Positions 2,392 through 16,466 of a stretch of DNA of 48,864 nt are shown piece after piece. The notes beneath the pieces were generated by a model. It was not told the DNA's origin. It searched no databases and saw only the letters and a program-made list of their open reading frames with translations. Each line of letters begins with the position of its first letter. Within the stretch, counting starts at the first letter, position 1. This DNA is from an uncultured Pelagibacteraceae bacterium (GTDB taxonomy: Bacteria; Pseudomonadota; Alphaproteobacteria; Pelagibacterales; Pelagibacteraceae): the NCBI GenBank assembly GCA_902524865.1, contig CABZEV010000003.1, forward strand, positions 1 to 48,864, read 5' to 3'. The translations under genes and the position numbers were made by a program.

Positions 2392-3397
2392 TTTGAAAAC
2401 AGAAAATCTTAAAAAAGAAGTTATCAAAATTTTTAAAAATCATGGATTAAGTAATCCTCATGCTGTTATTTCAGCAAATGCTTTAATTAATGCTGAGTTA
2501 GTTGGTGCTTATGGTCATGGTCTTTCTAGATTAAGAATGTATTGTGAAAGAATATATAAAAAAGTTATCAATCCAAAACCTAGAATAAGAGTAAAAAAGA
2601 TATCTCAATCGATTGCTCATATCGATGCTGATAATAGTATTGGCTTCGTTGCAGCAGATCTCGCGATTAAAAAAGCAATCGAATGCGCAAAAAAAACAGG
2701 TATCGGTTTAGTGGCAGTGAAAAATAGTGGTCACTATGGGCTATCTGGTTACTACGCTGAACAGGCAGTCAAAAAAAATTTAATCACAATGATTTATACT
2801 AATGCTCCACCTGCGATCGCTCCTTATGGCGCTAAAAAAAGTTTGTTTGGAACAAATCCTATATGTTTCGGCTCTCCAACTGGAGCAAGGGTACCTTTTA
2901 TATTGGATACAGCTATTGCAAAAATTAATAGAGGCAAAATTAGATTTGCAGCTAGAAATAACCAAAAAATACCAAAAGGTGTTGCATTAGATAAATTTGG
3001 CAAACCAACTACAGATGCAAAAAAAGCTCTTTACGGAGTTCAATTACCTATTGCAGGTTTTAGAGGTTCAGGTTTAGCATGGATGGTAGATATTCTAAGT
3101 GGTGTTTTAACCGGTGGAAATCATGCAGGTAAAGTTAAGGATCCTTTTGATGATTTTTCAGGTCCACAAAATATTGGACATTTGTTTATCACATTTAAAA
3201 CAAACTTATTTGTCAAAAACTATACCTCAAGAATTAATAATAATATTAAAACAATTAAAAGATTGCCTAAAATTAAAGGTGTAAAAGAAATAATGTATCC
3301 TGGTCAAAATAAAGATAAAAGGTTTAGAATGAATTTTAAAAAAGAAATTAAATTGTCAAAAATTATAAAAAAAGACTTAGTAGATTTAAAAAATTAG
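2378..3397 (+). CDS. Ldh_2 (malate/L-lactate/sulfolactate dehydrogenase) family oxidoreductase, possibly ComC-like
   Basis: Family motifs GHGLSRLRMY, VKNSGHYGLSGYYAEQAVKKNLITMIYTNAPPAIAPYGAKKSLFGTNPICFGSP, DIATAxxxRGKI-like segment; start overlaps permease end. Confidence 0.8.
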   Translation: MEKANLKTENLKKEVIKIFKNHGLSNPHAVISANALINAELVGAYGHGLSRLRMYCERIYKKVINPKPRIRVKKISQSIAHIDADNSIGFVAADLAIKKAIECAKKTGIGLVAVKNSGHYGLSGYYAEQAVKKNLITMIYTNAPPAIAPYGAKKSLFGTNPICFGSPTGARVPFILDTAIAKINRGKIRFAARNNQKIPKGVALDKFGKPTTDAKKALYGVQLPIAGFRGSGLAWMVDILSGVLTGGNHAGKVKDPFDDFSGPQNIGHLFITFKTNLFVKNYTSRINNNIKTIKRLPKIKGVKEIMYPGQNKDKRFRMNFKKEIKLSKIIKKDLVDLKN

Positions 3398-10179: not shown

Positions 10180-10470
10180 ATGGAAAAAGAAATGTTAGTA
10201 CATCTTAAGCTTAAAGAGGGTAAATTAGAAACTTTCATGGGTTGGATGCAATCAGATGAAGGGATGGGTGTTAGAAAAAGTGTTGCCTATCCAGAGAAAA
10301 CTATTGGCGCTATGATTCCAGATAAAAGTGGAATGTTATTTAAAGTAAATGTTCATAATGAAGCTGGAATGAAGGAATTTGTAACTGGAAATAATCCTAC
10401 TGCAAAGGCTATTTACGCAGATTGTGTAGAAAGTGCTCAGTTATTTGAATTATCTAAAGTTGATTTATAA
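10180..10470 (+). CDS. Small hypothetical protein, possible dimeric alpha/beta-barrel (ABM-like) fold
   Basis: SD AAAGGAG upstream; MEKEMLVHLKLKEGKLETFMGWM, alternating beta-alpha pattern. Confidence 0.7.
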   Translation: MEKEMLVHLKLKEGKLETFMGWMQSDEGMGVRKSVAYPEKTIGAMIPDKSGMLFKVNVHNEAGMKEFVTGNNPTAKAIYADCVESAQLFELSKVDL

Positions 10471-10480
10471 AGGAGAAAAA

Positions 10481-10687
10481 ATGAAAAAAATAATTTTAAC
10501 ACTTTGTTTGGTCTTATTTGTTAGCTCAGCATACGCGGGTTCATGTCCAATGTTAGCTAAAAATATTGAAGATAAGATTAAAAAAGCTCAAGAACTTAAA
10601 GATCAAGGTATGGATGCCCATAATAATGGTGATCATGCTAAGTCTGAAAAACTTTTAAATGAAGCACTTGCTCTTTTTAAAAGTTAA
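10481..10687 (+). CDS. Small secreted hypothetical protein (start corrected from 10433)
   Basis: SD AAAGGAGAAAA directly before ATG at 10481; signal peptide MKKIILTLCLVLFVSSAYAG; short helical C-terminal part. Confidence 0.75.
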   Translation: MKKIILTLCLVLFVSSAYAGSCPMLAKNIEDKIKKAQELKDQGMDAHNNGDHAKSEKLLNEALALFKS

Positions 10688-14125: not shown

Positions 14126-15226
14126 ATGAAAATAGAATTATCTGATAACAAAGTTTTTTTTGAAAAACAGGGTGCAAAAAAAGAAATCCACCCTTTCTGG
14201 CTAAGAGAACGGGTGAATAGCGAGAACTTTTTAGACCAAAAAACTCAACAAAGATTATTTGATCCAACAATGCTTAAAGATAACTCAGAAATTTCAAAAG
14301 TGAGTATTTCAGATAAATTTCTTGAGGTAAGTTTTAAAGATGGGGCATACGCAAAACTAGTTATCGAAAATATTCTTAAAGAGTTTGAGAAAGATAATGA
14401 ATTATATTTTATCAATAAAATTTCATGGAAATCAGACTTTCAAAATAACAGTATTTATAAGTTTAATAAAAACTTTTTTGAGGAAAAAATAATGTATGAG
14501 TCTTTATTAGACTTTTACAAATATGGATTTGTTATATTTGAAAATGTTCCTACCCAAGATAACTTTATCGTCAATTTTGCTAATTCAATCGGAAGTATTA
14601 GACGAACTAATTTCGGTGAGTTTTTTAATGTAAAATCAAAACCAAATCCAAACGATCTTGCCTATACTTCATTACCTTTAGCACCACATACTGACAATCC
14701 TTATAGAAAACCAGTGCCTTGTATACAATTGCTGCATTGCATCGAAAATGAAGTTGGTGGTGGCTCATCAACATTAGTTGATGGCCTTGCTGTAACAGAA
14801 GAGTTAAAAAAAGAACATCCAAGATTTTTCCAAATTTTAACCGAAATAAAAGTCAGATTTCAATTTGTCGATGATAATGTTGTTTTAGAAGACTGGGCCG
14901 AAATGATTGAACTAGATGAAAATAAAAGACTTAAACAAGTCAGATTTAGTCCTCGATTAGATTTTGTACCCTTAATGGAAAAGGAAAAATTAGAATTATA
15001 TTACGCTGCTAGAAACAAAATTTCAGAAATGTACAACTCAAAAAAATTCAGAATTGAATTTAAATTAAAACCTGGTGATCTAATAATGATAGACAATTAC
15101 AGACTTCTTCATGGTAGAACCGAATATAATGCTAATGAGGGTAATCGGTTTTTACAAGGTTGCTATATAGATTATGATAGCACTGAGGGAAAACTCAAAC
15201 ACTTGAAAAGAAAATTCAATATATAA
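14126..15226 (+). CDS. TauD/TfdA-family dioxygenase, gamma-butyrobetaine hydroxylase-like
   Basis: N-terminal HPFWLRERV domain plus LAPHTDNPYRKPVPCIQLLHC (HxD) and LLHGRTEYN distal motifs. Confidence 0.85.
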   Translation: MKIELSDNKVFFEKQGAKKEIHPFWLRERVNSENFLDQKTQQRLFDPTMLKDNSEISKVSISDKFLEVSFKDGAYAKLVIENILKEFEKDNELYFINKISWKSDFQNNSIYKFNKNFFEEKIMYESLLDFYKYGFVIFENVPTQDNFIVNFANSIGSIRRTNFGEFFNVKSKPNPNDLAYTSLPLAPHTDNPYRKPVPCIQLLHCIENEVGGGSSTLVDGLAVTEELKKEHPRFFQILTEIKVRFQFVDDNVVLEDWAEMIELDENKRLKQVRFSPRLDFVPLMEKEKLELYYAARNKISEMYNSKKFRIEFKLKPGDLIMIDNYRLLHGRTEYNANEGNRFLQGCYIDYDSTEGKLKHLKRKFNI

Positions 15227-15227
15227 A

Positions 15228-15407
15228 TTATTTGTTAAAGCAATTGTTTACTAATATTGCCATTAATATCCAAATTACAAATGTTTCTCCATGACTAAAT
15301 ATATAATCAGCTCCAGCAAAACCTGCTGCAATATTGATAGCATAAATAATTATCGTAGAGACAATTAAGCTTACAATTAAGTTAATTAATCCTTTTACAT
15401 ATTTCAT
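15228..15407 (-). CDS. Unlisted small membrane ORF (59 aa)
   Basis: Manual translation of the reverse strand: MKYVKGLINLIVSLIVSTIIIYAINIAAGFAGADYIFSHGETFVIWILMAILVNNCFNK*; absent from the supplied ORF track. Confidence 0.5.
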   Translation of the reverse strand: MKYVKGLINLIVSLIVSTIIIYAINIAAGFAGADYIFSHGETFVIWILMAILVNNCFNK

Positions 15408-15500
15408 AATAAAACAATATAGATATTCAAGTTCAATGCAATTTTTAATTTTCTATTTTTAAGTGAAGTTTTTTTAAGATGCGGGAATACTAATAAATAG

Positions 15501-15750
15501 TTAGGTAGTATTCAAGAAATATATTTAATTAATTTGTAAATAAATATCTTGAATACAACCTTGCTGAAATTTAACTTCTAATTAAGGAGGTAGTTTTAAT
15601 GAATCAAATGCCACCTGACACTTAGCTGGGTAGCTTCATATTTCATAAAAACGAAAATAAAAAACTTAAAGTCCATTCGGACTTAAATGCCATCGAGGCG
15701 ACTTAAGGGAGCTCTTTTGGCTGGAGAGCAAAGGGGCGACCCCTTAAGTA
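15501..15750 (+). ncRNA. Candidate structured intergenic RNA (family not recognised; strand uncertain)
   Basis: Local GC rises within an AT-rich intergenic; several perfect stems: 15508-15517/15547-15556, 15669-15674/15679-15684 (AAGTCC-attc-GGACTT), 15701-15709/15741-15749 (ACTTAAGGG/CCCTTAAGT) with inner GCTCT/AGAGC. Confidence 0.5.
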
Positions 15751-15758
15751 AATTAAAT

Positions 15759-16466
15759 TTACAATTTTAAAAGTAGGCAGATTAATTTATCTTTAAAATT
15801 TATTCTTTTATTATATTTGCTCCTGATTTCACCTATCCCTTTTAAGATTTCTGTATTACTTAAATTCAATAAAGTTGAAATGTATCGTTTTTTAATCATT
15901 TCCACATATTTCTCTCTCGATATCTTTACTTTGAAAGAAAACGTTTTCGAAATACTTCCGGGATATAAACCATTTATAAATCTCAGTATTTTTTGATCTT
16001 TTTTAAGCGATTTACTCAATTTTTTTTTCATTTTTGTAAAAGTTGGAATTTCATTTTTAGATGTGGCTAACGTAAATATTGCTATCCGACCACTTGAATT
16101 AAGGCAATTCATGCATAGTAAAAGTAGTTTGTTTATATCTTTAAGTGGTAAAAAATGAATTGTTTGTTTTAGTAAAATTAAATCAAATTTTTTTCTATTC
16201 TTTTTGAAATAATTTATTGCATCTATTTTATTAAAAATAATTCTTTTATCTCGATCTTTATGTTGCTCAATATCAATACCTGTAGGCTTATTAACTAATC
16301 TAAGCTTAGATGTTAAGTTTCCTAATATCTTACCTCTACCACAACCAATATCTAAAATTTCAGAATACTTATTGAGTTTTGTCTCTTTAATTAAAAATTT
16401 GTTAAAAGATTTAATATAACTATTTGAGGAAAGCCAAGTTTCATTGTCCCAATTCTTTAATGACAC
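15759..16466 (-). CDS. Class I SAM-dependent methyltransferase
   Basis: YSEILDIGCGRGKILGNL motif I; FDLILLKQTIHFL. Confidence 0.82.
   Translation of the reverse strand: MSLKNWDNETWLSSNSYIKSFNKFLIKETKLNKYSEILDIGCGRGKILGNLTSKLRLVNKPTGIDIEQHKDRDKRIIFNKIDAINYFKKNRKKFDLILLKQTIHFLPLKDINKLLLLCMNCLNSSGRIAIFTLATSKNEIPTFTKMKKKLSKSLKKDQKILRFINGLYPGSISKTFSFKVKISREKYVEMIKKRYISTLLNLSNTEILKGIGEIRSKYNKRINFKDKLICLLLKL

Follow-up and report, generated by a model that had tools for sequence, protein, structure and literature searches.

A probable stand-alone RNA family in Pelagibacteraceae combining a very probably translated micro-ORF with a conserved three-hairpin domain

Bacteria of the SAR11 group are the most numerous marine heterotrophs and the commonest bacteria of the ocean; they have few transcription factors and few known regulatory RNAs. 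Arrest-peptide leaders such as TnaC, SpeFL and the Erm leaders have three features in common, namely a short ORF, conservation of its C-terminus at the stop codon, and structure in the region behind it. The element described here shares all three features with them. It differs in that no regulated gene follows on the same strand, and its arrest is predicted from the motif. To our knowledge, an arrest-type reading frame without a cis gene would be the first of its kind. Dual-function sRNAs (SgrS/SgrT; rnTrpL/peTrpL of Sinorhizobium, PMC7298713) resemble the element in carrying a short frame inside a structured small RNA and in the likely action in trans. Two traits of this class are present in the element, namely a sense-strand structure that is conserved and a short ORF that is predicted to be translated. 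In contrast to these sRNAs, the element is not homologous to any Rfam family, its peptide retains only PPDT, and no biosynthetic operon is associated with it upstream. The SAR11_0636 element of Meyer et al. 2009 (PMC2704228) is likewise a stand-alone candidate RNA of Pelagibacter, and its GC-rich intergenic region also has varying neighbours, but it occupies positions 622388-622552 of HTCC1062, as opposed to 762691-762859 for the present element. A short reading frame within a structured RNA is also characteristic of tmRNA, but none was detected at the element, and the tmRNA of HTCC1062 is encoded elsewhere (10302-10518, PMC2704228). Spacer DNA is nearly absent from the genome, and a stand-alone RNA with a selected micro-ORF that persists there would add a new regulator to SAR11.

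Locus and secondary structure

The window, that is, the whole stretch of DNA analysed, comprises 48,864 nt of contig CABZEV010000003.1 from an uncultured Pelagibacteraceae bacterium. The element is located on the + strand in a spacer of about 350 nt between a 59-aa ORF (15228-15407, -) and a methyltransferase gene (15759-16466, -). The original prediction had drawn attention to the length of this spacer and to its GC-rich 3' half, and both are borne out, the GC content being 38-53% at 15650-15739 and about 20% around it. The fold of segment 15660-15752 reaches -36.9 kcal/mol (z = -4.65), which none of 200 dinucleotide shuffles matched; the 5' inverted repeat at 15500-15568 gave a fold of -20.3 with z = -6.0. 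The 59-aa ORF lies between a TauD-family gene and the element, is divergent from the latter, contains hydrophobic stretches (MKYVKGLINLIVSL...) and has no Pfam match.

The 3' domain comprises three hairpins termed P_A, P_B and P_C and is preceded by an A-rich linker (15647-15668, +), which has about 60-94% A at most positions in 82 sequences. P_A (15669-15684, +) is the AAGTCC-attc-GGACTT hairpin of the original prediction; it is kept in relatives and covaries, with double changes at 6/6 pairs in the alignment A3. P_B (15689-15699, +; GCC-atcga-GGC) is short and the weakest helix, with 96.7% of cells paired and double changes at 2/3 pairs. P_C (15701-15749, +) is a two-part hairpin with an outer stem at 15701-15709/15741-15749 and an inner stem at 15711-15717/15731-15737; more than 98% of its cells are paired and 8/12 modelled pairs have double changes in A3. 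The 9-bp stem ACTTAAGGG/CCCTTAAGT that had been proposed at 15701-15709/15741-15749 is this outer stem, whereas the GCTCT/AGAGC pairing proposed inside it (with AGAGC at 15725-15729) is not that of the relatives. In the family the partner of GCTCTTT (15711-15717) is AAAGAGC, found at 15731-15737 in the window, so that the inner stem differs from the one first drawn. The GGGG-CGA-CCCC hairpin (GGGGCGACCCC) is present at 15733-15743 as claimed, but is not conserved, being confined to the genome of the window and its nearest relatives; with its absence from the other relatives, the proposed switch between it and the 9-bp stem falls away. P_B could alternatively pair with the 5' arm of P_C; this was also rejected, since in the main clade, where it is possible, it scarcely improves on chimeras (-9.6 vs -9.0), and in the HTCC1062 clade it is absent.

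Comparison of the sequences establishes that the secondary structure is conserved on the sense strand, with P_A, P_B and P_C supported by covariation. In the MAFFT alignment A1, 96% of cells pair, and changes on both sides were found in 8 pairs (51 cells vs 16 in shuffles); when the partners were slid along, pairing was at most 62%. The alignment A3 of 82 distinct sequences, which came from the model search, was fitted to the model and is therefore biased towards it, has 98.2% of cells paired and double changes in 16/21 pairs. With a tree based on the unpaired columns, parsimony counts about 33 independent double changes in the three hairpins; a single pair of P_A accounts for at least 7 of them, and two pairs of P_C for 5 and 4. 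Read on the + strand, there are 24 G-U cells vs 13 A-C cells overall and 19 vs 6 in P_C, while the short P_B leans the opposite way. The + strand folds more stably than the minus strand in 76/82 sequences. In the MLRITPPDT clade (L023 and similar loci) P_A is shifted (TCCATTTGATGGAT).

The micro-ORF and its proposed role

A micro-ORF (15599-15625, +; ATGAATCAAATGCCACCTGACACTTAG = MNQMPPDT*, followed by C) precedes the linker and was overlooked in the original prediction. It consists of 6-9 codons after a Shine-Dalgarno-type sequence and ATG; the former is AAGGAGG in the window (15584-15590, +) and is invariant in the 39-sequence alignment, where it was part of the search pattern. All 82 distinct sequences have a frame of 7-9 codons with the ending PDT* and a C as the base 3' of the stop codon, and 79 of them have PPDT*. 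The five final codons differ among relatives only at third positions or in the choice of stop codon. Conservation covers four residues only, and the peptide is free in its length and N-terminal part. The prolines lie 17-23 nt from the Shine-Dalgarno sequence, and the start codon follows it at 3-11 nt; this second spacing is the more variable and changes oppositely to the number of N-terminal codons, so that the prolines are mostly at 18-20 nt.

The search pattern for the first set of relatives fixed part of the Shine-Dalgarno sequence and ORF, so that the members found by the covariance model alone, collected without this pattern, are the fair test of the ORF. Among these, ACA TAA replaces ACT TAG in L182, L183 and L185 (as it does in L211), and CCA CCA or CCG CCA replaces CCA CCT in L184, L186 and L187; other variants are CCG CCT and GAC or GAT. 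The farthest copy reads MSPPET with the stop codon TGA, and a group of four genomes (L188-L191) has a single proline. GGAGG is retained in the model-only members, except in the decayed copy L192 (2492-2637, -), where the start codon is gone, the Shine-Dalgarno sequence has become AACGGGG and the P_C stem is broken. Such joint loss is expected if ORF and structure form one unit. The conserved frame, start and stop and the third-position changes indicate that the micro-ORF is very probably translated; with the micro-ORF conserved, the RNA is not purely non-coding.

Further pairings and frames were considered and rejected. A hairpin around the stop codon is no better in native sequences than in chimeras (-2.56 vs -2.47), and a pairing of AAGGAGG with CCACCT is weakened where CCT has changed to CCA. 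A second ORF through P_B and P_C (MPSRRLKGALL..) does not persist in relatives, where stop codons and indels of lengths other than multiples of three interrupt it. The PPDT* matches elsewhere in Pelagibacter genomes run antisense to apparently conserved coding genes; PPDT*-like matches in L228-L239 (at about 740-840), which many of these genomes share, lie antisense to a conserved YVSGG-type coding sequence and are therefore not further micro-ORFs.

In E. coli a stop codon followed by C is a weak termination context. Among the PPX sites of E. coli cells devoid of EF-P, PPD was found solely in the pausing set (PMC4140641). Strong initiation, a slow PPD and a stop codon followed by C together suggest that the frame holds a ribosome. 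The explanation considered probable here, on comparative grounds, is a stand-alone small RNA, about 165-250 nt long and encoded on the + strand, in which the micro-ORF, a short arrest-type frame, is joined to the three-hairpin 3' domain and which acts in trans. The micro-ORF part would provide a full-strength ribosome-binding site and a product ending in PPDT just before the stop codon and C, and the 3' part would provide the three hairpins behind the A-rich linker. Strong ribosome loading and a slow step at PPD/stop would leave at most one slow ribosome on each RNA. The ribosome occupancy would then govern how the structured domain folds, how stable it is or how accessible it is, and this domain would act on mRNAs or a protein in trans. 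The output of such a domain would report the translation status, for example the capacity of EF-P or release factors. Regulation in trans is probably, with moderate confidence, the likeliest use of the RNA.

In support of this small-RNA explanation are the covariation on A1 and A3, the stability of the + strand, the ORF kept in 82/82 sequences, the convergent neighbour of varying family, the single copy per genome and the joint decay in L192. Counted against it are the lack of a clear promoter and of a U-tract after P_C, the absence of the element from about half of the near-complete genomes, the single proline in L188-L191, and the tested couplings of ORF and structure (the stop-codon hairpin and the P_B/P_C pairing), which were unsupported. 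The comparison as such shows the hairpins, the + strand preference, a selected frame, a single copy, independence of the element from its neighbours and the lack of a downstream cis target.

If the PPDT-ending peptide were itself the active product, the hairpins would merely stabilise or terminate its mRNA. The conservation of the C-terminal PPDT at the amino acid level agrees with such a micro-peptide gene, but conservation extends to just four residues, with the N-terminal part and length free, and the 3' structure is stricter than an mRNA tail requires; this alternative is considered unlikely, and is the least unlikely of the rivals. A more far-reaching form of the stand-alone RNA, itself unlikely, would capture one ribosome on a built-in arrest sequence (strong Shine-Dalgarno sequence, PPDT and weak stop context), with an almost constant spacing of about 18-20 nt to the Shine-Dalgarno sequence; the ribosome would serve as sensor or anchor for a trans-acting structured domain with no gene controlled in cis.

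Gene context, upstream block and termination

The downstream gene is convergent with the element in essentially every locus and belongs to varying families, including cytochrome c', a methyltransferase, an aminotransferase-like protein and several families without Pfam match. It follows that the element lacks a cis target and is no cis leader, as the original prediction had supposed from the window. The upstream genes are found on either strand; with the downstream gene convergent, the element should thus have its own promoter, and no standard promoter was recognised for it. The neighbourhood is mostly the same chromosomal one, with gene turnover around the element. The MLRITPPDT clade has another neighbourhood, with photolyase-like and aminotransferase-like genes.

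The alignment of upstream regions revealed a block at 15483-15564 (+) that forms a 5' inverted repeat (GGGAATACTAATAAA, then AGGTAGTATTCAAG...CTTGAATACAACCT). Its 5' arm GGTTGTATTCAA is nearly invariant, and the 3' arm is missing in some clades. In nine genomes GGTTGTATTCAA was nearly limited to the element, and it was therefore rejected as a general operator. The block may be a promoter, an operator or a hairpin at the 5' end of the RNA. P_A, read on the minus strand, is a GC-containing stem with a U-rich tract behind it (the complement of the A-rich linker) and is the sole terminator-like site found in 15220-15820. This arrangement suggests a second role for P_A, absent from the original prediction, as it probably also serves as the intrinsic terminator of the convergent gene. 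No U-tract is present 3' of P_C.

These features could also be read as DNA and terminator signals only, that is, as terminators of convergent genes and a protein-binding upstream repeat without a functional + strand RNA. P_A with its minus-strand U-rich tract makes a good intrinsic terminator, the 5' repeat arm stays conserved where its partner is lost, and the neighbours are convergent, as such a reading would have it. It is nevertheless judged improbable, as it leaves the Shine-Dalgarno sequence and the selected ORF unexplained, along with the internal loop of P_C and the G-U preference on the + strand, and the same element adjoins different genes. A cis leader or attenuator, in which the micro-ORF would control a downstream gene on the same strand, has the layout of a translational attenuator in its favour (Shine-Dalgarno sequence, short ORF with pause motif, then hairpin), but is very improbable and already contradicted by the opposite strand of the next gene in essentially all loci.

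Distribution and family status

A covariance model built from 39 non-redundant elements detected the element, about 250 nt long and in one full-length copy per genome, in 148/397 Pelagibacterales genomes. Among the near-complete genomes of this order it is present in 74/151, i.e., it is lacking from about half; in 21 near-complete genomes without a model match, neither a relaxed pattern nor a permissive model search found a diverged copy. A DNA search of 101 relatives gave clear homologues in 18 genomes, the one of the window included. The core pattern of Shine-Dalgarno sequence and ORF occurs in at least 119 stretches, and the matches listed are all from Pelagibacteraceae or Pelagibacterales. 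In a class-wide sample of 289 genomes of Alphaproteobacteria the element was found only in the genome of the window and one congener, and a pattern search found none in viral contigs or phages. The upstream inverted arms and the occurrence in more than one genomic neighbourhood would suit a MITE-like mobile or repeat element bounded by terminal inverted repeats. Such an origin is very improbable: each genome has one copy instead of several dispersed ones, no phage or viral match was found, the chromosomal neighbourhood is mostly constant, and neither several recent copies nor target-site duplications were seen.

The window contains no Rfam family at gathering score, and a permissive scan gave sub-threshold matches only. 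MicroRNA families matched the 5' arm far below their gathering scores; these matches are due to a long AU-rich hairpin and were rejected. tmRNA, which the original prediction had named as a possible known RNA, was not found, the window having no tRNA or tmRNA and no tRNA-like domain with a tag reading frame. When 16 homologous loci were compared with Rfam 15, nothing reached the gathering threshold except a glycine riboswitch (RF00504), located at 2948-3034 (+) of L187 beside a distant copy of the element. No description of the element was found in the literature on SAR11 RNAs and primary transcriptomes. With no Rfam family and strong covariation, the prediction of a novel structured RNA is upheld, and the element represents a real and new RNA family in Pelagibacteraceae that probably stands alone.

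The genome of relative L182 is taken to be that of Candidatus Pelagibacter ubique HTCC1062. Its copy is located at 762691-762859 (-), within the intergenic region 762678-763012 between SAR11_0785 (+) and qacH (-), and the local ORFs agree with this position. Meyer et al. 2009 (PMC2704228, Table 1) gave 76 BLAST hits for that intergenic region and assigned no RNA to it. SAR11_0785, the convergent neighbour in HTCC1062, was reported to change 1.52-fold late in iron limitation (p = 0.051, PMC2864753).
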